This document shows, piece after piece, positions 3,962 through 39,878 of a DNA stretch of 42,781 bases. The stretch is from Dawidia soli. Lineage in GTDB: Bacteria > Bacteroidota > Bacteroidia > Cytophagales > Cyclobacteriaceae. The stretch is from positions 1 through 42,781 of the forward strand of contig NZ_JAHESC010000056.1 of the NCBI RefSeq assembly GCF_018598185.1, given 5' to 3'. Each line of letters begins with the position of its first letter. The first letter of the stretch is position 1. The translations under genes were made by a program, and so were the position numbers. Under the pieces are notes generated by a model, which saw only the letters and a program-made list of their open reading frames with translations, had not been told where the DNA came from and searched no databases.

Positions 3962-4876
3962 TTGGAAGCGCTCATTGCCCACGAGGTAACAAAACGATAT
4001 TCGCAGCACCTGGCACTGGACCGCGTAAGCCTGGCCATTCCCGCGCAGACCATCTTCGGGTTGTTAGGCCCCAACGGAGCCGGAAAGACCACCCTCATTC
4101 GCATCATCAACCAGATCATCCAGGCAGACCAGGGCACCATTACCCTGTTTGGAGAACGGCTGCAGGAAAAACACATCGGCACGATCGGCTACCTGCCCGA
4201 AGAGCGGGGCCTGTATAAAAAAATGCGCGTGGGAGAACAACTCATCTACTTTGCGCAGCTCAAAGGCCTCAGCCGCCAGGAGGCCATCGCCCGCAGCAAA
4301 GCGTGGATCACAAAATTCGAGATCAAAGACTGGTGGAATAAAAAAGTAGAAGACCTCAGTAAAGGCATGGCGCAAAAGGTGCAATTTATCAGCACCGTCA
4401 TGCACGAGCCGCGCCTCATCATATTAGACGAGCCCTTTTCAGGCTTCGATCCCATCAATGCACAGCTGATCACCAAAGAGATCCTCGAGCTGAAAGACAA
4501 AGGCTGCACGATCATTTTCTCCACACACCGCATGGAAACGGTAGAAGACCTGTGCGACCACATCGTCCTGATCGATCGATCCAAAAAGATCCTGGAGGGA
4601 TCCAAACGGCAGGTAAAAGAAACTTATCGCACCCATACCTACACCGTTGAGCACCGCGGCCCGTTTGCGCTGGATGCCGCAAAGTACCGGTTGATCCAAC
4701 AGCGCGTCGTGGAAGATAATTTCTATAAAACAGTGATCGCCGTACATGACGACAGCGGCCCCAACCAGCTGCTCCGCGACCTGATCCAGGTAACAGAAGT
4801 GCATAGCTTTATCGAAAAGATACCGACCATGAGCGAGATCTTTATCACGTTGGTGAAAGGAGGAAACCATGAATAA
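3962..4876 (+). CDS. ABC-2 type transporter, ATP-binding protein
   Basis: This is the cytoplasmic ATPase of an ABC exporter of the NatA/DrrA type (304 residues as called). Visible motifs are Walker A GPNGAGKT (36-43), signature LSKGM (132-136, a variant of LSGGQ), Walker B RLIILDEP (151-158) and the H-loop STHRM (His189). A C-terminal accessory domain (~215-304) follows, typical of exporter ATPases. The start is uncertain. TTG at 3962 is the only start-like codon next to the family N terminus (EALIAHEVTKRY). A good ATG at 3954 is one base out of frame, so either TTG is used or a base is missing between 3954 and 3962. The permease overlaps the 3' end by 8 nt. Substrate unknown. Confidence 0.92.
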   Translation: MEALIAHEVTKRYSQHLALDRVSLAIPAQTIFGLLGPNGAGKTTLIRIINQIIQADQGTITLFGERLQEKHIGTIGYLPEERGLYKKMRVGEQLIYFAQLKGLSRQEAIARSKAWITKFEIKDWWNKKVEDLSKGMAQKVQFISTVMHEPRLIILDEPFSGFDPINAQLITKEILELKDKGCTIIFSTHRMETVEDLCDHIVLIDRSKKILEGSKRQVKETYRTHTYTVEHRGPFALDAAKYRLIQQRVVEDNFYKTVIAVHDDSGPNQLLRDLIQVTEVHSFIEKIPTMSEIFITLVKGGNHE

Positions 4877-6185
4877 GATTTGGCTCATCATGAAACGCGA
4901 GTTTCTCACCCGCGTACAAAAACGCTCGTTCCTGATCGCAACGATCCTCATTCCGCTCATCTTCCCGTTGCTGATGGGGCTTATGATGTACTTTTCCGTG
5001 GAGCAAAAACGCCACGCCGAAAAACAGGAGATCCAGTATGTGGATGAAAGCGGTTTGTTTGTGCCCGATACATCGGTGTTTCGCTTCAAACCCTTTCCCG
5101 GTACCTTCCAACAGGCCCGTATGTTACTGGATGCCGACTCCAATGTCGTGGGAACACTGCTGCACATCCCGAAGCTGGACGTGATGCGGCCGGCAGGGAT
5201 CACGTTGTATGGCAAAGTAAACCTCAGCCCCTCGGACATCGCCAGCCTGGAGCAAATGCTCGAGAACCGCATCCGCGATGTAAAGATGGAACAGATGAAG
5301 GTCAATCAGAAATTACTGGATGAGCTTAAAACAGACGTGTCGATCGAAGCCATCACGGTAACGGAAGGCGGACATGAAGAGGCTTCCGACTCCAGCATCC
5401 TGTTTGGGATGGGCATGGCCTGTGGCATCCTGATGTATATGTTCATCTTTATCTATGGCGCGCAGATCATGCAGGGCGTCATTGAAGAGAAATCCAGCAA
5501 GGTGGTCGAGATCATCGTATCGTCGGTCCGGCCTTTCCAGTTGATGATGGGAAAGATCCTCGGCCTGGCATCCGTGGGTTTGCTGCAGTTCCTGATCTGG
5601 ATCGTCTTGATCACCGTCGTCTCCACCACGTTGCTGACCTACTTTGGAGTATCCATGCCGCAGCAACAAATGATGGAAGAGGTCGGCCGGCAATACCCGG
5701 AGAGTGCCGCGGCACAAGACTACGCCGTCGCTTCGTTTATGAAGGTTTGGGACCAGATCCCGCTGACGTATGTCATTTTTAATTTCCTGTTTTACTTCCT
5801 CGGAGGCTACCTGCTCTACGGCGCACTCTTTGCCGCCGTGGGAGCCGCCGTCGACAGCCCGGCCGAAGCCCAGCAGTTTATGTTCCCGATCACCATCCCC
5901 ATGCTGATCGCCTACCTCAGCCTGTTTGCCTTTGTGTTAGAAGACCACGATAGCGCGATCAGTGTGTGGCTGTCGATCATACCCTTTACAGCACCCATCA
6001 CCATGATCGGCCGGCTCGGCTTCGGCGTGCCGTGGTGGCAGTTGCTATTATCGCAGGGATTGCTGATCATAGGCTTTATATTTACCACCTGGGCCGCGGG
6101 CAGGGTCTACCGCATCGGCATTCTCATGCACGGTGCCAAAGTGAACTACCGCGTGCTGATGAAGTGGTTTATGATGCGAAACTAG
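4869..6185 (+). CDS. ABC-2 type transporter, permease
   Basis: This 438-residue membrane partner of the preceding ATPase resembles the NatB/YhaP family. One membrane segment lies near the N terminus (about 20-42, SFLIATILIPLIFPLLMGLMM). A soluble extracytoplasmic region of about 130 residues follows, then a C-terminal group of roughly five membrane segments starting at GMGMACGILMYMFIFIYG. The stretch QGVIEEKSSKVVEIIVSSVRP is typical of ABC-2 permeases and lies on the cytoplasmic side. The ATG overlaps the ATPase gene by 8 nt, so the two are translationally coupled. Families of this type export sodium, drugs or peptides, and the sequence does not show which. Confidence 0.9.
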   Translation: MNKIWLIMKREFLTRVQKRSFLIATILIPLIFPLLMGLMMYFSVEQKRHAEKQEIQYVDESGLFVPDTSVFRFKPFPGTFQQARMLLDADSNVVGTLLHIPKLDVMRPAGITLYGKVNLSPSDIASLEQMLENRIRDVKMEQMKVNQKLLDELKTDVSIEAITVTEGGHEEASDSSILFGMGMACGILMYMFIFIYGAQIMQGVIEEKSSKVVEIIVSSVRPFQLMMGKILGLASVGLLQFLIWIVLITVVSTTLLTYFGVSMPQQQMMEEVGRQYPESAAAQDYAVASFMKVWDQIPLTYVIFNFLFYFLGGYLLYGALFAAVGAAVDSPAEAQQFMFPITIPMLIAYLSLFAFVLEDHDSAISVWLSIIPFTAPITMIGRLGFGVPWWQLLLSQGLLIIGFIFTTWAAGRVYRIGILMHGAKVNYRVLMKWFMMRN

Positions 6186-6186
6186 C

Positions 6187-7443
6187 ATGAGCAAAAAGCC
6201 TTCAATACCGGGACTGGCATTTTATCAGAACAACTCCGCTGCCAAGTGGATCGTACTGGGCGTCGCCATCCTGATCAGTGGAGGGTCCATCTATTATACC
6301 AAAATACTCGTAGACCAGCTCAAGGAGCGCGAGCGACAGCAGGTACAACTATACGCCAAGGCAATAGAATATACCGCCAACGAAGACGATACCGGCGGCG
6401 ACGTAAACTTCATCGCGCAGGAGATCCTCTTCCAGAACAACTCGATCCCCATCATCCTGGCCGACGAGAAAGGCAATGTATTGTCATACCGCAACCTCGA
6501 CCTGGAGGAGCCTTGGTCCTCCGAGCGCAAGGATGCCTTCCTGGCCGACGCCATGGAAACCATGAAGACCACCTACGAGCCCATCACCGTCACGTTGCGC
6601 GACTCCCAGACAGGCGAGGTGTTTGGTGTACAATATATTTACTATAAGAATTCATTCCTGCTCATACAGCTCATCGCCTATCCCTATATCCAGTTGTCCG
6701 TCATCGCCATCTTTGCCTTCATTTCCTACCTGGCCTTCAGCTACTCCAAAGCCGCCGAGCAAAACCGCGTGTGGGTAGGCCTGGCAAAAGAGACAGCGCA
6801 CCAGCTGGGCACACCCCTGTCGTCGTTGATGGCCTGGGTAGAGCTCCTGCGCGAAGACCCCGGGGTAAAACAGAAGGGCGTGGTGGAAGAGCTGGAGAAA
6901 GATGTATACAAACTGCGGATCGTGACCGAACGGTTTTCCAGCATCGGTTCCGTGCCCACGCTCAAACGCGAGAACATCGTCTCGTTGGTCAACAATGTCG
7001 TAAATTACCTCCGCCCACGTGTTTCTGCCAAAGTGCGCATCGAGGTATTCACGTTATCCGATCACATTGACGCCGATGTGCACGTACCGCTTTTCGAATG
7101 GGTCATTGAAAACCTCTGTAAAAATGCGGTAGACGCGATGGGCAACTCCGGTACCATTGCCATCAAGATCCTGCGCGGCAACGAAGGCAAAGTCTTTATC
7201 GACGTATCTGACACCGGCAAGGGCATCCCCCGGTCTAAGATCAATATGGTGTTCCGGCCTGGATTTACTACTAAAAAACGGGGCTGGGGCCTGGGCCTGA
7301 CGCTGGCCCGGCGCATTATCGACACCTATCACAACGGCAAGATCTTCGTAAAAAGCTCGGAAGAGAATCAGGGCACTACCTTCCGAATCGTGTTGAATGC
7401 CGCCCCCGAGAGCTTTGCGCAACGCCCGCAGCCGGGGGCTTAA
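6187..7443 (+). CDS. Membrane sensor histidine kinase
   Basis: This is a 418-residue two-component kinase. Two membrane segments (about 20-39 and 157-185) enclose a ~115-residue extracytoplasmic sensor region with no domain I recognise. The H-box is KETAHQLGTPLSSL with phosphoacceptor His205. The ATPase domain shows the N-box ENLCKNAVDAM (308-318), G1 DTGKGI (342-347), F-box GFTTKKRG and G2 GWGLGL (366-371). No HAMP domain is obvious. The start lies 1 nt after the permease stop, so it is co-transcribed with the ABC exporter and may sense exporter substrate or envelope stress (inference). No response regulator gene is adjacent, so its partner must be elsewhere. Confidence 0.92.
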   Translation: MSKKPSIPGLAFYQNNSAAKWIVLGVAILISGGSIYYTKILVDQLKERERQQVQLYAKAIEYTANEDDTGGDVNFIAQEILFQNNSIPIILADEKGNVLSYRNLDLEEPWSSERKDAFLADAMETMKTTYEPITVTLRDSQTGEVFGVQYIYYKNSFLLIQLIAYPYIQLSVIAIFAFISYLAFSYSKAAEQNRVWVGLAKETAHQLGTPLSSLMAWVELLREDPGVKQKGVVEELEKDVYKLRIVTERFSSIGSVPTLKRENIVSLVNNVVNYLRPRVSAKVRIEVFTLSDHIDADVHVPLFEWVIENLCKNAVDAMGNSGTIAIKILRGNEGKVFIDVSDTGKGIPRSKINMVFRPGFTTKKRGWGLGLTLARRIIDTYHNGKIFVKSSEENQGTTFRIVLNAAPESFAQRPQPGA

Positions 7444-30979: not shown

Positions 30980-33900
30980 TTGCGCGCAAACGTTTCTATA
31001 AGGTATTTGCTGGCGGGCCTTCTGGCCCTCGGACCCTTATTGCTGACGGCACAATCGTCTGTGTTGCAATCCGGCAGCTGGTATAAAATGGCCGTCCCCG
31101 CACGGGGTGTTTACCGCATTTCGTATGACCAGTTCCGGAAAATGGGCTTTGCCGGGTCGACTGATCCGCGCAACATTCGCATCCACGGTAACCCCGGCGG
31201 TATGTTGCCGCAACCCAATGCCGCCGACCGGCCCCATGACCTGGTGGAGAGCGCCATCTTTATACAGGGCGAAGCAGACGGCGTATTTAATTCCGGTGAT
31301 TACATCCTTTTTTATGCCGAGGGCCCGGCACTGGAACGCGCCGACGCGTCGCGGCGGTTCACGCGCTATGAGAGCAACCTGTACAGCGAGCGCAATTATT
31401 ATTTCATCACCGTCGGCGATACCCCCGGCAAACGCCTGGCCGAGGCGGAGAACCTGAACGGTAGCTACCCGGTTGTAAACCGGTTTGACGACTATGCCTA
31501 CCACGAGGTGGACCAGCACAACGAGCTGTCGTCGGGGCGCGAATGGTTCGGCGAGTCGTTTTATACCGCCGGCGAGCAAACCATTACCGTAGACATGCCC
31601 GGCATCATCGAGAGCGCACCCATACGGCTGGTGTCGGACGTGATGTCGCGGTCTACCAGCCAAACTTCTTTTAAAGTATACCTGAACAACACACTGCTGG
31701 GAGAGCAAACCATCGCAGGCCTGCCCGACTCGCAGTATGCCCTCAAGGGTATACATCGCCGGGATACCCTGCAGGCATCGCTGGGCAGCGTGTCCGTGAG
31801 CGGCCGCGCCACACACGAAGTGAAATTTCAATATGTCAAGACAGGCACGGGCACCGGGTATATCGATTTCTTTTTGTTGCAGGTAGAACGTGCCCTGGCC
31901 CTGTACAAAGACCAGGTGGTTTTTCGCTCGTACGCAAGTGTAGGACAAACAGCCTCGACGTTTACGATCGACGGCGCCGGAACCCAAACGACCGTCTGGG
32001 ATATTACCGATCCCAACACACCGGCATGGCAAACAACGGCCGGATCCTTTTCCACCTCCACCACCACGCTAAAAGAATTTATTGTTTTCCGGTCCACCGC
32101 GCCGGCACCGGAATTTATAGGTAGCGTAAGCAATCAAAACCTGCGCGGCATGCCTGCGCCCAACCTGATCATCGTAGCGCACCCTGATTTTTTAGGTGCC
32201 GCACAACGGCTCGCGGCACACCGCGAATCACACAGCCACTGGACGGTTCAAATCGTCACGCCACAGGAAATTTATAATGAATTCTCTTCCGGCCGCCAGG
32301 ATGTGACGGCAATCCGGGATTTTGTAAAGTATATTTATGACAAAAGTCCCGGAACCCTGCGTGCGCTTTTACTTTTTGGTAAAGGGTCGTACGACTATAA
32401 AGACCGCATCGTGAGCAACACGAACTTTGTGCCTACCTATGAATCGCGTAATTCGCTCGAGCCGCTGGCGACCTATTCGTCAGACGACTACTACGGTTTT
32501 TTAGAGCCCGACGAAGGGCAGTGGAGCGAGCAGATCGTACAGGTACACACGCTGGACATCGGCGTCGGGCGCCTGCCGGTAAAATCGGTAGCAGAGGCGA
32601 ACGTCGCGGTCGATAAGATCATCTACTACGACACCAACCGAAAGTCCTATAACCGCTGGCGCAAGCAGATCATGTTCGTGGCCGACGATGGCAACACCGT
32701 AGACGATTTTACAACCGATCACCAGTTCCAGGCCAACAACATGGCCGCCTCGATTGAAAGTCTGCAACCCGAGTTCGATACACGCAAGATCTTTATGGGA
32801 GTGTATCACAAAACCGTTCGGCCCAATGGCGAAGTGGTTCCCGAAATGACGGAAGACATCGTTCGCACGTTCGACAAGGGCGCGTTGGTGATCAATTATA
32901 CTGGCCACGGCTCCGAGCAGGTATGGGCAGACGAGCGCGTCTTTACCGAGACCGAAGTCAAAGCGCTCGAGAATAAACTATATCCATTTGTGGTGACCGC
33001 CACCTGCGAGTTTGGACGCAATGACGACCCCGTCGTGGTATCGAGCGCGGAACAGATCCTGTTGCGTCCCGAAGGCGGAGCCATCGGCCTGGTGACCACC
33101 GCCCGCCCGGTGTACTCGCTGACGAACTTCGATCTGAACCGGGCGTTCTACAAGGCGTTGTTTCAAAAGCAGGACAACTATTATCAGCCCCTCGGAGAGG
33201 TGTACCGCCTCACGAAGAACAATACCGTCGCTGCGGTCGGCAATCGTAACTTCTCGTTGCTGGCCGATCCGTCCATGACGCTGGCGATGCCCTATCAATA
33301 TGTAGCCGTTACCGCGATCCAGACCGCCACCGGCTCCGATACGCTCAAAGCCTTGTCGACTGTAGAAGTGACCGGTGAGGTGCGCGACGCCGGCGGCAAC
33401 CGGCTCGACAACTTCAATGGCACACTGGAAGCAACGCTTTTTGATAAACCGACACCCTACATCACCGTAGGAAAAAACGATCCGCCTTTTTCATTTTCAC
33501 AGTGGGACAATGCATTGTTCCGCGGCAAGGCAAAAGTAGAGCACGGCACCTTTACCTTCACGTTCATAGTGCCCAAGAACCTGGTGTACGAAATAGGCCC
33601 GGGTAAACTGAGCCTCTATGCTTCCGATCCGCAGCACCTGCGCGACGCCTCGGGCGCAACCTCGGCGTTCCGGGTGGGAGGCAGCGAGCCGAATGTTCCG
33701 CCCGACAATACACCGCCGCAGATCGCACTCTATATGGGCGATACCACCTTTGTCTCCGGTGGCATCGTCAATCCGTCCACCACGCTGGTGGCGCGGCTGC
33801 ACGACGCCAGCGGCATAAACATTTCCAACTACGGCATCGGCAACGCGCTGGTCGCCGTGCTGGACGATGGTACGATATACAAAGTCAGCGACTACTATGA

Positions 33901-34363
33901 AGCCGATGTCAACGATTTTACGCGCGGCTGGGTGAACTTCCCGCTGCACAACCTGACCCCCGGCCGTCACACCCTCACGCTGAAGGCCTGGGATACGTAT
34001 AACAACCCCGCACAGGCGCAGATTAATTTTGTGGTAACAGACGGTGAAGCGTTGGTTATCGAAACGTTTAGCAATTACCCCAATCCGTTCCGGGATGGAA
34101 CGACACTTTTCTTTACACACAACCGCGTGGGCGACGACCTGGAAGGCGAGCTGGTGGTGTATGACGTCACGGGGCTGGAACTGAAACGCGCCAGCTTTAC
34201 CGTTTCGGAGAGTTCGTACCGGGTAGAATTGCCGCGCCTGACCGTCGCCGCCGACCTGGACAAAAATGTTTCGGGGGGATTATACCTGGCGCGTGTTGCG
34301 GTTCGTTCATTAACCAATGGTTCTAAAAATGAGCGTGTTACAAAGCTTATTACCGTTAAATAA
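30980..34363 (+). CDS. porU: Type IX secretion system sortase PorU
   Basis: PorU (1127 residues) is the cell-surface C25 cysteine peptidase that cuts the C-terminal signal from type IX secretion cargo and attaches the cargo to surface lipid. The N terminus is a signal peptide (SIRYLLAGLLALGPLLLTAQ). The gingipain-like domain spans about 385-770, with catalytic His643 in NYTGHGSEQVWADERVF and Cys676 in VTATCEFGRNDDP. Ig-like domains follow. Residues ~1025-1127 form a T9SS C-terminal-type domain (NYPNPFRDGTTLFF ... GGLYLARV ... KLITVK), which PorU family members retain. The start is TTG at 30980, the only in-frame start-like codon after the upstream stop at 30956. porV follows directly. Confidence 0.95.
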   Translation: MRANVSIRYLLAGLLALGPLLLTAQSSVLQSGSWYKMAVPARGVYRISYDQFRKMGFAGSTDPRNIRIHGNPGGMLPQPNAADRPHDLVESAIFIQGEADGVFNSGDYILFYAEGPALERADASRRFTRYESNLYSERNYYFITVGDTPGKRLAEAENLNGSYPVVNRFDDYAYHEVDQHNELSSGREWFGESFYTAGEQTITVDMPGIIESAPIRLVSDVMSRSTSQTSFKVYLNNTLLGEQTIAGLPDSQYALKGIHRRDTLQASLGSVSVSGRATHEVKFQYVKTGTGTGYIDFFLLQVERALALYKDQVVFRSYASVGQTASTFTIDGAGTQTTVWDITDPNTPAWQTTAGSFSTSTTTLKEFIVFRSTAPAPEFIGSVSNQNLRGMPAPNLIIVAHPDFLGAAQRLAAHRESHSHWTVQIVTPQEIYNEFSSGRQDVTAIRDFVKYIYDKSPGTLRALLLFGKGSYDYKDRIVSNTNFVPTYESRNSLEPLATYSSDDYYGFLEPDEGQWSEQIVQVHTLDIGVGRLPVKSVAEANVAVDKIIYYDTNRKSYNRWRKQIMFVADDGNTVDDFTTDHQFQANNMAASIESLQPEFDTRKIFMGVYHKTVRPNGEVVPEMTEDIVRTFDKGALVINYTGHGSEQVWADERVFTETEVKALENKLYPFVVTATCEFGRNDDPVVVSSAEQILLRPEGGAIGLVTTARPVYSLTNFDLNRAFYKALFQKQDNYYQPLGEVYRLTKNNTVAAVGNRNFSLLADPSMTLAMPYQYVAVTAIQTATGSDTLKALSTVEVTGEVRDAGGNRLDNFNGTLEATLFDKPTPYITVGKNDPPFSFSQWDNALFRGKAKVEHGTFTFTFIVPKNLVYEIGPGKLSLYASDPQHLRDASGATSAFRVGGSEPNVPPDNTPPQIALYMGDTTFVSGGIVNPSTTLVARLHDASGINISNYGIGNALVAVLDDGTIYKVSDYYEADVNDFTRGWVNFPLHNLTPGRHTLTLKAWDTYNNPAQAQINFVVTDGEALVIETFSNYPNPFRDGTTLFFTHNRVGDDLEGELVVYDVTGLELKRASFTVSESSYRVELPRLTVAADLDKNVSGGLYLARVAVRSLTNGSKNERVTKLITVK

Positions 34364-34392
34364 TTATCTTTATACCCTTGAAACCAACTCGG

Positions 34393-35586
34393 ATGAAGCT
34401 TAGAGTACTTTTCGCCGTGGTGCTGTCGACCACGTTTGCCAGTCAAATTTTCGCCCAAGGCTCTGTGTCTAGCCCAGATGAACTGATCGGTCAGAACAAT
34501 GCCATTACCACGGCAGTTCCGTTTTTGGCCATCTCCCCCGATGCCCGGCATGCGGCGTTGGGCGATGCAGGGGTGGCAACATCACCCGATGCAAACGCAG
34601 CCTACTGGAACGCGGCCAAGCTCGCTTTTATCGATAAACAATACGGAGGCACCTTGTCGTATACGCCCTGGCTGGGCAAAATCGTAAACGACATGAAGAT
34701 CGCCTACCTGTCGGCCTTCTACAAACTGAACCGCGAGCAAGCCGTGGCATTCTCGATGAAATATTTCGATCTGGGCGACATCACGTTCACTACCGGCCCA
34801 GCGCCGACCGATGTGATCGGTGTCTACAACCCGCGCGAGTTCACGCTCGATGCAACCTACTCGCGCATGCTGTCCGAGAACTTTAGCATCGGCGGTTCCG
34901 CACGCTACATCCACTCCAACATTACGGGCGCCTTCTCCGGCAACGATGCCCAGCCCGGCAAGAGCGCCGCGGTAGACTTCGGCGTGTATTATGTAAAGCC
35001 GATGACGGGTGTAAAGAACTCAACCTGGTCCTTAGGCGCCACCGTCACCAACATCGGCGGTAAGATCTCGTATACCGGTGGAGACAACAAAGACTTCCTG
35101 CCCACCAACCTGCGCGTGGGCACAGCCTACAAAATGGAGCTCGATCCCTACAATACCATTACCTTCATCCTGGACTTCAACAAACTGCTGGTGCCGACAC
35201 CGCCCGTGTACGATTCGGTCGGTAACATCTATGCCGGTAAAGATCCCAACCGTTCACTGCTGAGCGGTATGTTCGGTTCGTTCTCCGATGCCCCCGACGG
35301 CTTCAATGAAGAGCTCAAAGAGGTCATGACCTCGGTCGGCATCGAGTACTGGTATAACGACCTGTTCGCCGCACGCGTAGGGTATTTCAACGAGGCAAAG
35401 ACCAAAGGCAATCGCAAATACATGACGCTGGGGGCAGGCTTCCGCAAAGACCGCTTTGGCTTTGACATGGCATACCTGGTGCCTACCAACAAGCGCGAGC
35501 ACCCCCTGGCCGAGACGTTGCGCTTTACGCTGCACTTCACGGTAGCACCTACCCAGGTAGAAAAAGAAGAATCGGTTACTGACTAA
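34393..35586 (+). CDS. porV: Type IX secretion outer membrane protein PorV (LptO)
   Basis: PorV (397 residues) is a FadL-like outer membrane beta barrel that receives cargo from the SprA translocon and hands it to PorU in the attachment complex. A signal peptide (MKLRVLFAVVLSTTFASQIFAQ) is followed by the family segment AVPFLAISPDARHAALGDAGVATSPDANAAYWNAAKLAF, which is diagnostic. Barrel strands follow, and the C terminus includes VGIEYWYNDLFAARVGYFNEA and MTLGAGFRKDRFGFDMAYLVP. TTG at 34378 in the same frame is a less likely start than ATG at 34393. It lies 29 nt after porU. The partners PorQ, PorZ and the motor proteins are not in the window. Confidence 0.94.
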   Translation: MKLRVLFAVVLSTTFASQIFAQGSVSSPDELIGQNNAITTAVPFLAISPDARHAALGDAGVATSPDANAAYWNAAKLAFIDKQYGGTLSYTPWLGKIVNDMKIAYLSAFYKLNREQAVAFSMKYFDLGDITFTTGPAPTDVIGVYNPREFTLDATYSRMLSENFSIGGSARYIHSNITGAFSGNDAQPGKSAAVDFGVYYVKPMTGVKNSTWSLGATVTNIGGKISYTGGDNKDFLPTNLRVGTAYKMELDPYNTITFILDFNKLLVPTPPVYDSVGNIYAGKDPNRSLLSGMFGSFSDAPDGFNEELKEVMTSVGIEYWYNDLFAARVGYFNEAKTKGNRKYMTLGAGFRKDRFGFDMAYLVPTNKREHPLAETLRFTLHFTVAPTQVEKEESVTD

Positions 35587-35593
35587 TCGTTTG

Positions 35594-36853
35594 ATGCTGA
35601 ATCGTAGTATAGCGCCTCCGTTCACCCGGAGCATTGATTTTGAATTGATCCGACCCCGCACAGAGGTATTGGCCAACGGCCTTCCGATGTTTATCGTCTC
35701 GGGCGGTTCGCAGGAAGTGGTGCGCGTGGAATTCCTCATGCGGGCCGGCCGCTGGTTCGAGACGACCTGGGGCGCCGCGTATTTTGCCGCCAACCTGCTG
35801 TCGAAAGGCACGTCAACCAAAAGCAGCTACGAAATAGCCCAGTACTTTGACCAATACGGCGCACACTTCGAAGTAAGCGCCGGCCTGGATGTAGTATCAC
35901 TGTCGCTCTACACGCTCACCAAAAACCTGGCGCCCACGCTGGCGCTGGTACGCGAGCTGCTGGAAGACTCGACCTTCCCCGAAAAAGAGTTGACCCAGCT
36001 CAAGTCCATCTATATTCAGAACCTGCGGGTGAACCAGGAGAAGACCAGCTTCCAGGCAGGCAAGCTGATCCGCCGCAGCCTCTTTGGCGAGGCGCACCCC
36101 TACGGCAAAGAGCTGGAAGAAAAAGAAGTGGAAGCGCTCACGCGCGAGCAGCTGGTGCAGCACCTGCAGGCCTATGGCAAAGATCTGGTGGTATTCGCAT
36201 CCGGCCGCGTGAACGACGCTACCGCGCAGATCCTCCGCGAAACGCTGTCGACGCTCACCGTGTTGCCCGGCGCGCCGAAGACGATCGAGCCCATGTATGC
36301 GCTTCCGTCACATCAATACCAGAAGAAGGAGGGCAGCATGCAGTCGTCCATTCGCATGGGCCGCAAAAGCATCGGCCGGGCGCATCCCGACTATGCGTCG
36401 GTATTATTGATCAACCACATCCTCGGCGGATACTTCGGCTCGCGCCTCATGAAGAACATACGCGAAGACAAGGGCCTGTCCTACGGCATATATTCCTCGT
36501 TGCAGACCCTGCAGCACGAAAATTACCTGGTGATCGGCGCCGACGTAAACAACGAAAACCTGGAAATGACCTTCGCCGAGATCCGCAAGGAACTGGGCAG
36601 ACTCTATACCGAGCCCGTGGGTGCAGAAGAGCTCGAAATGGCCCGCAATCACTTCATCGGCAGCCTGCAGTCCGAGATCACCACCCCCTTCGCACACGCC
36701 GAAAAGATCAAAAACATATTCCTCTACGGCCTCCCCGCCGACTACTACCAAAAGCTCATCCACACGCTCGACAGCCTCACCGCCGCGCAGCTCATGCAAA
36801 CCGCCCGCAATTACTTTGAGGAGGACAGCTTCTTCGAAGTAGCCGTAGGCTAG
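35594..36853 (+). CDS. M16-family peptidase-like protein without zinc motif
   Basis: This 419-residue member of the M16 (insulinase/processing peptidase) fold has two homologous halves. In the position of the HxxEH zinc motif, between RAGRWFETTWGAA and SKGT, it has YFAAN (63-67), so both histidines and the catalytic glutamate are gone. The second half keeps GGYFGSRLMKNIREDKGLSYGIYSSL, the region that supplies the substrate-contact Arg/Tyr pair in M16B dimers. It may therefore be the non-catalytic subunit of a heterodimer whose active partner is elsewhere (inference). It starts 7 nt after porV and so is probably in the porU-porV transcript. No signal peptide is seen. Confidence 0.9.
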   Translation: MLNRSIAPPFTRSIDFELIRPRTEVLANGLPMFIVSGGSQEVVRVEFLMRAGRWFETTWGAAYFAANLLSKGTSTKSSYEIAQYFDQYGAHFEVSAGLDVVSLSLYTLTKNLAPTLALVRELLEDSTFPEKELTQLKSIYIQNLRVNQEKTSFQAGKLIRRSLFGEAHPYGKELEEKEVEALTREQLVQHLQAYGKDLVVFASGRVNDATAQILRETLSTLTVLPGAPKTIEPMYALPSHQYQKKEGSMQSSIRMGRKSIGRAHPDYASVLLINHILGGYFGSRLMKNIREDKGLSYGIYSSLQTLQHENYLVIGADVNNENLEMTFAEIRKELGRLYTEPVGAEELEMARNHFIGSLQSEITTPFAHAEKIKNIFLYGLPADYYQKLIHTLDSLTAAQLMQTARNYFEEDSFFEVAVG

Positions 36854-36865
36854 GAATCAGCGTGA

Positions 36866-37081
36866 CCCGATAGCCATCGGGTGTGAAGAGTGAGAGCGTA
36901 AAAAGCCCTGAAGGGCCGTAACACGGCCCTGGCGCAAGTCTGAGCGAAGCGGTGACTTGTGCCGCGACGGTAGGCAGTTTGCAACTGCCGTCGAGCCCCG
37001 GCCCGCGGCAATGCCTGACGCCAGGTGCAAACTGGCATCCGGTATAGGCACAAGTCACCGCTTCGCTCAGACTTGCGCCAG
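36866..37081. repeat. Intergenic palindromic element, copy C, with a 35-bp inverted repeat
   Basis: This fills most of the 373-bp gap between the M16-like and ureohydrolase-like genes. It holds the palindrome cccgatagccatcggg (36866-36881) and a perfect 35-bp inverted repeat, 36929-36963 against 37047-37081, starting ctggcgcaagtctgagcgaa. The 83-nt interior contains a hairpin ggcagtt-tgc-aactgcc with outer cgacg/cgtcg pairing (36965-36993) and gccag-gtgcaaa-ctggc. The arms match the left end of copies A and B. Several short ORFs fall inside but look like artefacts of the repeat. Bases 37082-37226 show nothing definite. Confidence 0.75.
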
Positions 37082-38588: not shown

Positions 38589-39878
38589 ATGGACCTAGCG
38601 CAGTTGCTTTGCATCGTGCTCACCATTCTTTTCGGTTCTTTCTTTGCAGGCACAGAGCGTGCCTTCCTGTCGGCCAATACCCTGGAGGTTGAGCTCGAAG
38701 GCCGGCTGGGCTCCCCGTCCGCCCGCATCATGACATTCTTTCTGCGCCACCCGTTGTGGCTGCTGGCCACCACGCGGCTGGGCTATATTTTGTCCGTGCT
38801 CACGTTCGGGGTGCTGATGGGCCGGTTCCTGCTGCCCATCCCGGAAACCTTCGAGCCCACATTTTATCCCGTCGCCATGGCCGTGGCGGCCATCGTCATC
38901 ACGGCGTTGCTCGTCATGCTGGCGTGGGAAACGCTGCCCGTCATCCTGTCGTCGGTCAGTCCCAACCGGTTGCTGCTGATAGTCGCGATGCCGTTTGTGC
39001 TGGCCTTTGTGGCGTTGCTGCCCATCGTGAGCGTGGCCATCGCGCTGTCGCGGCTGTGGGTGGTGCACGTACAGAAAACCGAGTTCCCCGGCGACGGCCG
39101 CCTGTTCGGCTCCTACGACGTGAGCCGGTACCTCAAGGCCCTGGCCGCCGGCCGGCGCGACGCCGAGTCGAACAGCCAGACACGCGTTTTGCAGGATGCG
39201 ATGACATTCCGGCATTTGAAGGTGCGCGATTGCATGATCCCCCGCACGGAGATCATCGCCATGGAGATCAACAGCCCCGTGGCCGAGCTGCAGCAGGCCT
39301 TTGTGGAGAGCGGTCACTCGCGCGTGATCATTTACCGCGGCACCATCGACGACGTGGTGGGTTATTGCCCTTCCAATAAATTGTTCACACACGTAGAGCA
39401 CATCCGGGACATCGTGCTGCCGGTGCTGACCGTGCCCGAGACGACCCTGGCCAACGACCTGATGATCCGGTTTGTACGCGAGCACAAAAGCCTGGCCTGC
39501 GTGATCGATGAATTTGGCGGTACGTCCGGCATTGTCAGCATGGAAGACATCATGGACGAGGTGTTTGGCGGGCGGGAAGAAGGCCACCCGGCCGACGACG
39601 AGCAGCGTGTGGACGACCACACTTTTTTGTTCAACGGCCGGCTGGAGATCCGCTACCTGAACGAAACATACAAATTGCAGTTTCCCACCGGCAATTACGA
39701 CACGCTGGGCGGGCTGATCCTGGCCCATGCCGCCGAATTTCCGCGCCCGGGCGACGTTATTACGGCCGGGGAATTCACCTTTACGGTCCAATCCGTGCGC
39801 GAGAACCGCGTGGGCATGGTCAAAGTAGTGAAAGCGATTGCGGGCACCGCACCCGAGAGTTCCGGCAAGGCCGTTTAG
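38589..39878 (+). CDS. CNNM/CorC-family membrane protein, second copy (GldE-like)
   Basis: This 429-residue protein has the same architecture as the protein at 17492 but is only distantly related. The N-terminal CNNM-type membrane domain begins LLCIVLTILFGSFFAGTERAFLSA, followed by segments around 60-80, 90-115 and 130-155. Two CBS domains follow (MIPRTEIIAMEINSP; CVIDEFGGTSGIVSMEDIMDEVFGG), then a CorC_HlyC domain (LEIRYLNETYKLQFPTGNYDTLGGLIL). Family members are ion transporters or regulators. Gliding-associated GldE has this layout, and the neighbouring secretion genes make that comparison reasonable, but the sequence alone does not prove it. It lies 4 nt after the small membrane protein gene and upstream of the PpiD-like gene. 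Confidence 0.9.
   Translation: MDLAQLLCIVLTILFGSFFAGTERAFLSANTLEVELEGRLGSPSARIMTFFLRHPLWLLATTRLGYILSVLTFGVLMGRFLLPIPETFEPTFYPVAMAVAAIVITALLVMLAWETLPVILSSVSPNRLLLIVAMPFVLAFVALLPIVSVAIALSRLWVVHVQKTEFPGDGRLFGSYDVSRYLKALAAGRRDAESNSQTRVLQDAMTFRHLKVRDCMIPRTEIIAMEINSPVAELQQAFVESGHSRVIIYRGTIDDVVGYCPSNKLFTHVEHIRDIVLPVLTVPETTLANDLMIRFVREHKSLACVIDEFGGTSGIVSMEDIMDEVFGGREEGHPADDEQRVDDHTFLFNGRLEIRYLNETYKLQFPTGNYDTLGGLILAHAAEFPRPGDVITAGEFTFTVQSVRENRVGMVKVVKAIAGTAPESSGKAV

Follow-up and report, generated by a model that had tools for sequence, protein, structure and literature searches.

A zinc-less M16B protein encoded behind porU-porV in Dawidia soli is probably the non-catalytic half of a split heteromeric peptidase

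M16B peptidases are widespread in bacteria, and their function is called unclear in the part of PMC8960859 used here. That part describes Bacillales pairs, namely PttP1/PttP2, Bcn-gP1/gP2 and YmfF/YmfH, in which a zinc subunit with the motif HxxEH is accompanied by a partner with an Arg/Tyr (R/Y) pair; for PttP1/PttP2 a pull-down showed the heteromer, and alanine at R298 or Y305 lowered activity (PMC8960859). Sections of a 2025 review present TTHA1264/TTHA1265 of Thermus thermophilus as an M16B pair forming a heterodimer, and assign to the R/Y pair a role in substrate binding and in completing the active site (PMC12731061). A further pair with an active and an inactive chain is SPH2681/SPH2682 of Sphingomonas sp. 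A1 (structure 3AMJ), and homodimeric M16B peptidases of the BHP/YmxG type carry HxxEH and R/Y in one chain. The same sections of the review state that the R/Y pair is absent from MPP, which works without it, and from the bc1 core proteins (PMC12731061), so that a missing R/Y pair is by itself no proof that a partner is needed. Among the matches listed from the open PMC literature, no paper was recognised as dealing with the Bacteroidota pair considered here.

The locus compared here lies in a window of 42,781 nt from Dawidia soli (assembly GCF_018598185.1, contig NZ_JAHESC010000056.1, positions 1 to 42,781). On the plus strand of this window an M16B gene occupies 35594..36853, as delimited by its open reading frame, Pfam matches, alignment and an AF2 model; it begins with ATG at 35594 (or, alternatively, with the TTG at 35591), its stop codon ends at 36853, and the intact frame encodes 419 aa. 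Both M16 domains score above their Pfam cut-offs (PF00675, the N-terminal domain, E=4e-8; PF05193, M16_C, E=5.5e-22). The protein was aligned with its own orthologues (the inactive family, 51 sequences) and with those of two single active M16B proteins of the same genome, designated C45 (51 sequences) and C62 (52 sequences), the orthologue cut points being set by us at >180 bits for the inactive family, >40.5% identity for C45 and >44% for C62. YFAAN (residues 63-67, 35780..35794, plus strand) stands at the HxxEH position, and the third zinc ligand column, placed in the joint alignment via the 76-residue spacing that the review sections report for BHP (PMC12731061), holds Asn143 (36020..36022, plus strand); this column is Glu in both active families and Glu in just 2/51 inactive orthologues. 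The R/Y pair is retained in REDKGLSY (36461..36484, plus strand), with R290 encoded at 36461-36463 and Y297 at 36482-36484. The preliminary description had reported the replacement of HxxEH by YFAAN beside a kept Arg/Tyr region, and the alignment bears this out and adds the loss of the third ligand.

This combination is not a chance feature of one sequence, since HxxEH occurs at the zinc columns in none of the 51 inactive orthologues and both R and Y occur in all 51. A pattern search extended the R/Y pair to 80/80 loci of a wider set, which comprises the 80 best among no fewer than 590 loci from named genomes. HxxEH patterns do appear in four inactive frames (L193, L226, G016, G008), off the zinc columns. 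The protein also has an N-terminal stretch, MLNRSIAPP (35594..35620, plus strand), in which R4 and P8 do not vary across the 32 rows of alignment A1 or the 45 rows of A3, and which may dock on a partner. Residues 1-10 are poorly ordered in the AF2 model (mean pLDDT 54) despite this invariance, and inspection by eye of the N-terminus, MLNRSIAPPFTRSIDFELIRPR, revealed no hydrophobic stretch.

The AF2 model as a whole, built from 45 sequences, has a mean pLDDT of 93.1, and its four best PDB matches in a fold search are 3amj_B/D and 3gwb_A/B, 3amj_B ranking first with a TM score of 0.88 and 24% identity in the fold alignment. TTHA1265 follows at ranks 6 and 8 (5hxk_A, 7v4y_B), and the Thermus pair scores below 3AMJ in sequence. 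Compared with PDB sequences, the window protein reaches 101.6 bits with 3gwb_A and 95.0 bits with 3amj_B, the inactive chain, and C45 finds its best match in the active chain, 3amj_C (191.0 bits against 72.3 for the inactive 3amj_B). The two proteins thus correspond to 3AMJ chain by chain, and in the alignment the R.......Y pattern is present in the inactive chain of 3AMJ as in the window protein; the difference is that in Dawidia soli the two genes are unlinked. With NCBIfam the window protein is closer to YfmF_fam (64.5 bits) than to YfmH_fam (20.3 bits), and it falls outside the YfmF equivalog family (NF047422) because the cut-off of that family is 285 bits.

The genome (G000), which comprises 7.48 Mb on 122 contigs at 98% completeness, encodes, besides the window gene, the two single active proteins C62 and C45, a tandem pair on C57 and four double-length M16 genes on contigs C27, C39, C53 and C32. 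The suggestion that the window protein may need a catalytic subunit encoded elsewhere has found a fitting candidate in this set, as the search for paralogues with HxxEH gave C45 and C62. C45 (C45:233402-234637, minus strand) is an M16B protein of 412 aa with HLFEH, and its family has HxxEH in 51/51 sequences, with R and Y each in 0/51 (V, L, I and T, N, S, A stand there instead). It is this division of HxxEH and R/Y between the C45 and inactive families that names C45 as the candidate catalytic mate. No signal-like N-terminus was seen by eye in C45 or C62. The tandem pair at C57:16432-19022 consists of an active and an inactive gene; the inactive one has NIREDKGYTY and is 28% identical to the window protein, and the active one seems by eye to be without R/Y, giving the same split of motifs. 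Unlike the window protein and C45, both members of the C57 pair have N-termini that look signal-like by eye. Two frames at 4869-7443 of the window, considered as M16 partners, were rejected, as one encodes an ABC-2 permease and the other a histidine kinase.

The halves mostly come and go together. Across 59 genomes, 51 have both the inactive gene and C45, 7 have neither (G025, G038, G042, G043, G045, G047, G049), one has C45 only and no genome has the inactive gene without C45 (Fisher p=2e-8, with kinship left uncorrected). The exception, G053, is a draft of 720 contigs in which the inactive orthologue was not found, and G025, with neither gene, shares its family with the window genome. A G014 fragment of C45 and split G008 fragments of C62 were counted as present in the co-occurrence and omitted from the alignment. 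Among 198 genomes of the phylum, scored on at most 9 candidates per genome, an inactive match of at least 386 bits occurs in 26, and C45 of at least 436 bits in 26/26 of these; in four further genomes with C45 the inactive match reaches 308-348 bits, and four others (G063, G143, G112, G135) have an inactive-type match of 348-363 bits, which may be a distant orthologue or a paralogue, without a C45 match of at least 436 bits, these cut points being set by us on scores that are continuous here, though the gaps were clean in the loci fetched earlier. Mean divergence per genome of the inactive protein tracks that of C45 (r=0.78) more closely than that of C62 (r=0.44; 45 genomes). Mirror-tree distance correlations with the inactive protein hardly discriminate, at 0.75 for C45 and 0.72 for C62; the distance correlations exclude G020, G012 and G008. 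The 1.1-Mb genome G057 (L123, L139; 99% complete) has kept both peptidase halves, and neither PorV nor C62 was found in it.

In the wider set, again the 80 best of no fewer than 590 loci, the gene directly upstream of the inactive one is C45 in 39 loci and porV in 21; neither stands there in 18, and 2 loci are too short to tell. An order is named for 57/80 of them. Within these best 80 loci C45 is the upstream neighbour in all 15 loci of Sphingobacteriales, in 6 of Chitinophagales (neither in 4), in 2 of Bacteroidales (neither in 1, short in 1), in 1 of Flavobacteriales (neither in 1) and in the one locus filed under Burkholderiales; Saprospirales have neither in 4, Cytophagales have porV in 19, neither in 2 and C45 in 0, and the 23 loci without a named order divide into 14 with C45, 2 with porV, 6 with neither and 1 too short. 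The Comamonas sp. MAG locus L248 has a C45-inactive pair at Bacteroidota-like identity and is probably a mis-binned contig. In the 39 adjacent pairs of the best 80 loci the active protein always has HxxEH (39/39) and never R or Y at the respective columns (0/39), and the gap from C45 to the inactive gene runs from -11 to 149 nt, with overlap in 13 of the 32 measurable pairs. Outside the order of the window genome, 16/198 phylum genomes have both genes, which are adjacent in 9, about 1.1 kb apart in one (G090) and further apart or on different contigs in the remaining 6.

Since the adjacent, active-first order is spread over several orders, it is presumably older than the split one. More than one event may lie behind the rearrangement, because a rough FastTree of 131 inactive proteins requires 9 changes of C45 adjacency and 10 of porV adjacency (6 and 5 of them forced by starred branches); this tree has long branches, includes some genomes twice and was not relied on. 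The conserved neighbours of the two genes gave no lead to function or substrate: a divergent gene stands upstream in 21 of the 39 C45-adjacent loci (from the best 80 of at least 590), and it may encode a radical-SAM enzyme of the menaquinone pathway, and one gene follows C45 in 20/51 order relatives and may be ispF.

The window M16B protein thus very probably serves as non-catalytic subunit in a cytosolic M16B metallopeptidase of the heteromeric type, with C45 as its catalytic mate. The evidence for this consists of the motif split, the co-occurrence, the adjacency in relatives, the chain-by-chain homology to 3AMJ and the confident fold, and from it we infer a physical heterodimer, its peptidase activity, its cytosolic location and the order of events. 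By analogy with the known pairs, the two proteins would pair in the cytosol as a clam-shell heterodimer, taking up peptides and closing on them; the C45 half would bring the zinc and the general base, and the window half would contribute R290/Y297, by which substrate would be bound and the active site completed. The two genes lie side by side in many other Bacteroidota, sometimes overlapping and with the active gene first, and apart in the Cytophagales seen, the inactive one mostly behind porU-porV. Several findings count against this heteromer: G053 has C45 alone, 18/80 loci have neither neighbour (best 80 of at least 590), the tree-distance correlation of C45 is close to that of C62, the phylum scores have no clean gap, and the porV order is kept so well within the family of the window genome that chance relocation alone need not explain it.

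It is this porV order that invites a different reading, in which the protein would assist the type IX attachment complex by binding peptides or CTDs in concert with PorU-PorV. In the window, porU (30980..34363, plus strand; NCBIfam NF033707, 1286 bits, cut-off 420) precedes porV (34378..35586, plus strand; NF033710, 484 bits, cut-off 250), and the porV stop codon at 35584-35586 is followed by the ATG at 35594, in agreement with the 7-nt distance given in the preliminary description. PorV lies directly upstream in 36/50 order relatives and not in 14 (51 relatives have the gene, and G014, at a contig end, was omitted), and within the family of the window genome this holds for 32/35. The gap is at most 30 nt, or the genes overlap (9 cases), in 32/36 linked relatives, which makes co-expression with porU-porV plausible as judged from gene spacing. 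For Cytophaga hutchinsonii, the part of PMC8564354 used here places chu_3239, annotated as a zinc protease, behind porV; its orthology to the window gene is putative. PorV, scored above the NCBIfam cut-off, and the inactive gene also occur together in 49/59 genomes, and the 21 porV-linked loci of the wider best 80 (of at least 590) point the same way. Against an accessory role, no signal peptide was seen by eye, whereas PorU and PorV act at the outer membrane, and the invariant R/Y pair fits a part of an active site. The inactive gene moreover is present without a detected PorV in two genomes, G057 and G014 (99% and 83% complete, respectively), PorV is present without it in seven genomes (G025, G042, G043, G045, G047, G049, G053), and G038 has neither, so that the gene does not follow a pattern of occurring only with, and generally with, PorV. 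As each occurs alone, the porV link is separable from type IX secretion. Conservation of the linkage, raised earlier as a check, turned out to be two-sided: within Cytophagales it is mostly kept, and outside them it is not, C45 being adjacent instead. Among the 80 wider loci, the best of no fewer than 590, porV adjoins the gene in Cytophagales and in 2 loci of unnamed order, as against 0/35 loci from other named orders whose neighbour could be told, and C45 stands beside the inactive gene in none of the 51 order-relative loci. The binding role in secretion proposed earlier is therefore left unsupported, in view of the N-terminus as judged by eye and the 35 loci without a link as well as of G057 and the seven PorV genomes, and an accessory of the attachment complex is a very unlikely identity for this protein. 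The link to porU-porV is probably one of gene order, at most of shared transcription, if the protein is half of a split peptidase whose mate adjoins it in many relatives.

A non-catalytic half could also have C62 as its mate, or several mates. C62 (410 aa, HFWEH) is of the active type, its N-terminus is not signal-like, and its tree-distance correlation nearly equals that of C45. Its family, however, has HxxEH plus its own R/Y pair in 52/52 sequences, as in the homodimeric BHP/YmxG type, to which the window protein, with YFAAN in place of HxxEH, does not conform. Co-occurrence is also looser: of the 59 genomes, 48 have both, 3 the inactive gene only, 5 C62 only and 3 neither (Fisher p=0.03, kinship not corrected), G041 and G057 keeping an inactive gene but yielding no C62, and 5 of the 8 genomes that lack the inactive gene having C62. 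In the wider set, the 80 best of no fewer than 590 loci, no C62 match was seen beside the inactive gene. C62 was rejected as the mate on its own R/Y pair and this looser co-occurrence, and a C62 or multiple-mate arrangement appears highly improbable. The least probable identity is that of a decaying or repurposed pseudo-peptidase, serving without an enzyme partner as a regulator or scaffold. The zinc-motif columns do vary freely across the inactive family (Y, F, S, G, Q and others), as such drift would predict; but both inactive-family alignments show R/Y and parts of the GGYFGSRL block without variation, none of the orthologue rows listed contains an internal stop codon, and the active gene adjoins in 39/80 loci (best 80 of at least 590).

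The most likely answer is therefore a mostly ordinary one, a known type of heteromeric M16B peptidase with its two genes separated in this genome, and a secretion-side reading is unlikely. A likely catalytic partner can now be named for a widespread Bacteroidota protein that stands behind porV in many Cytophagales, and for this reason the window protein should not be mistaken for a secretion component. The gene order of the enzyme pair differs between orders, while its halves are mostly kept or missing together, and a defined M16B pair would be a useful entry point given that the function of these peptidases is called unclear in the part of PMC8960859 cited above. Because the porV order is tight in Cytophagales, there is a small chance that the porU-porV-M16 arrangement is functional, in that expression of the inactive half would be tied to secretion, the zinc-less subunit would be limiting and the amount of peptidase would follow the secretion load; a peptidase regulated in this way could, for example, clear peptides or fragments of unexported cargo.

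Two other features lie downstream of the M16B gene. Two genes further on, at 38589-39878, the window encodes a CNNM/CorC protein; among NCBIfam names GldE fits it best, though its 155 bits lie below the cut-off of 376. Just behind the M16B gene, at 36929-37081, lies a palindromic element with perfect inverted ends of 35 nt, which has at least 71 matches (both strands) at no fewer than about 42 places in the genome (40/100 candidates scored). It looks like a recent insertion, as the next frame begins 371 nt after the M16B frame in the window and 54 nt after it in Parachryseolinea silvisoli (L187), the nearest named locus, whose M16B protein is 90% identical to that of the window. A Y1_Tnp gene at C32:11242 stands 182 nt from a copy of the element at C32:10998-11060, and this proximity suggests a REP/RAYT-like system.
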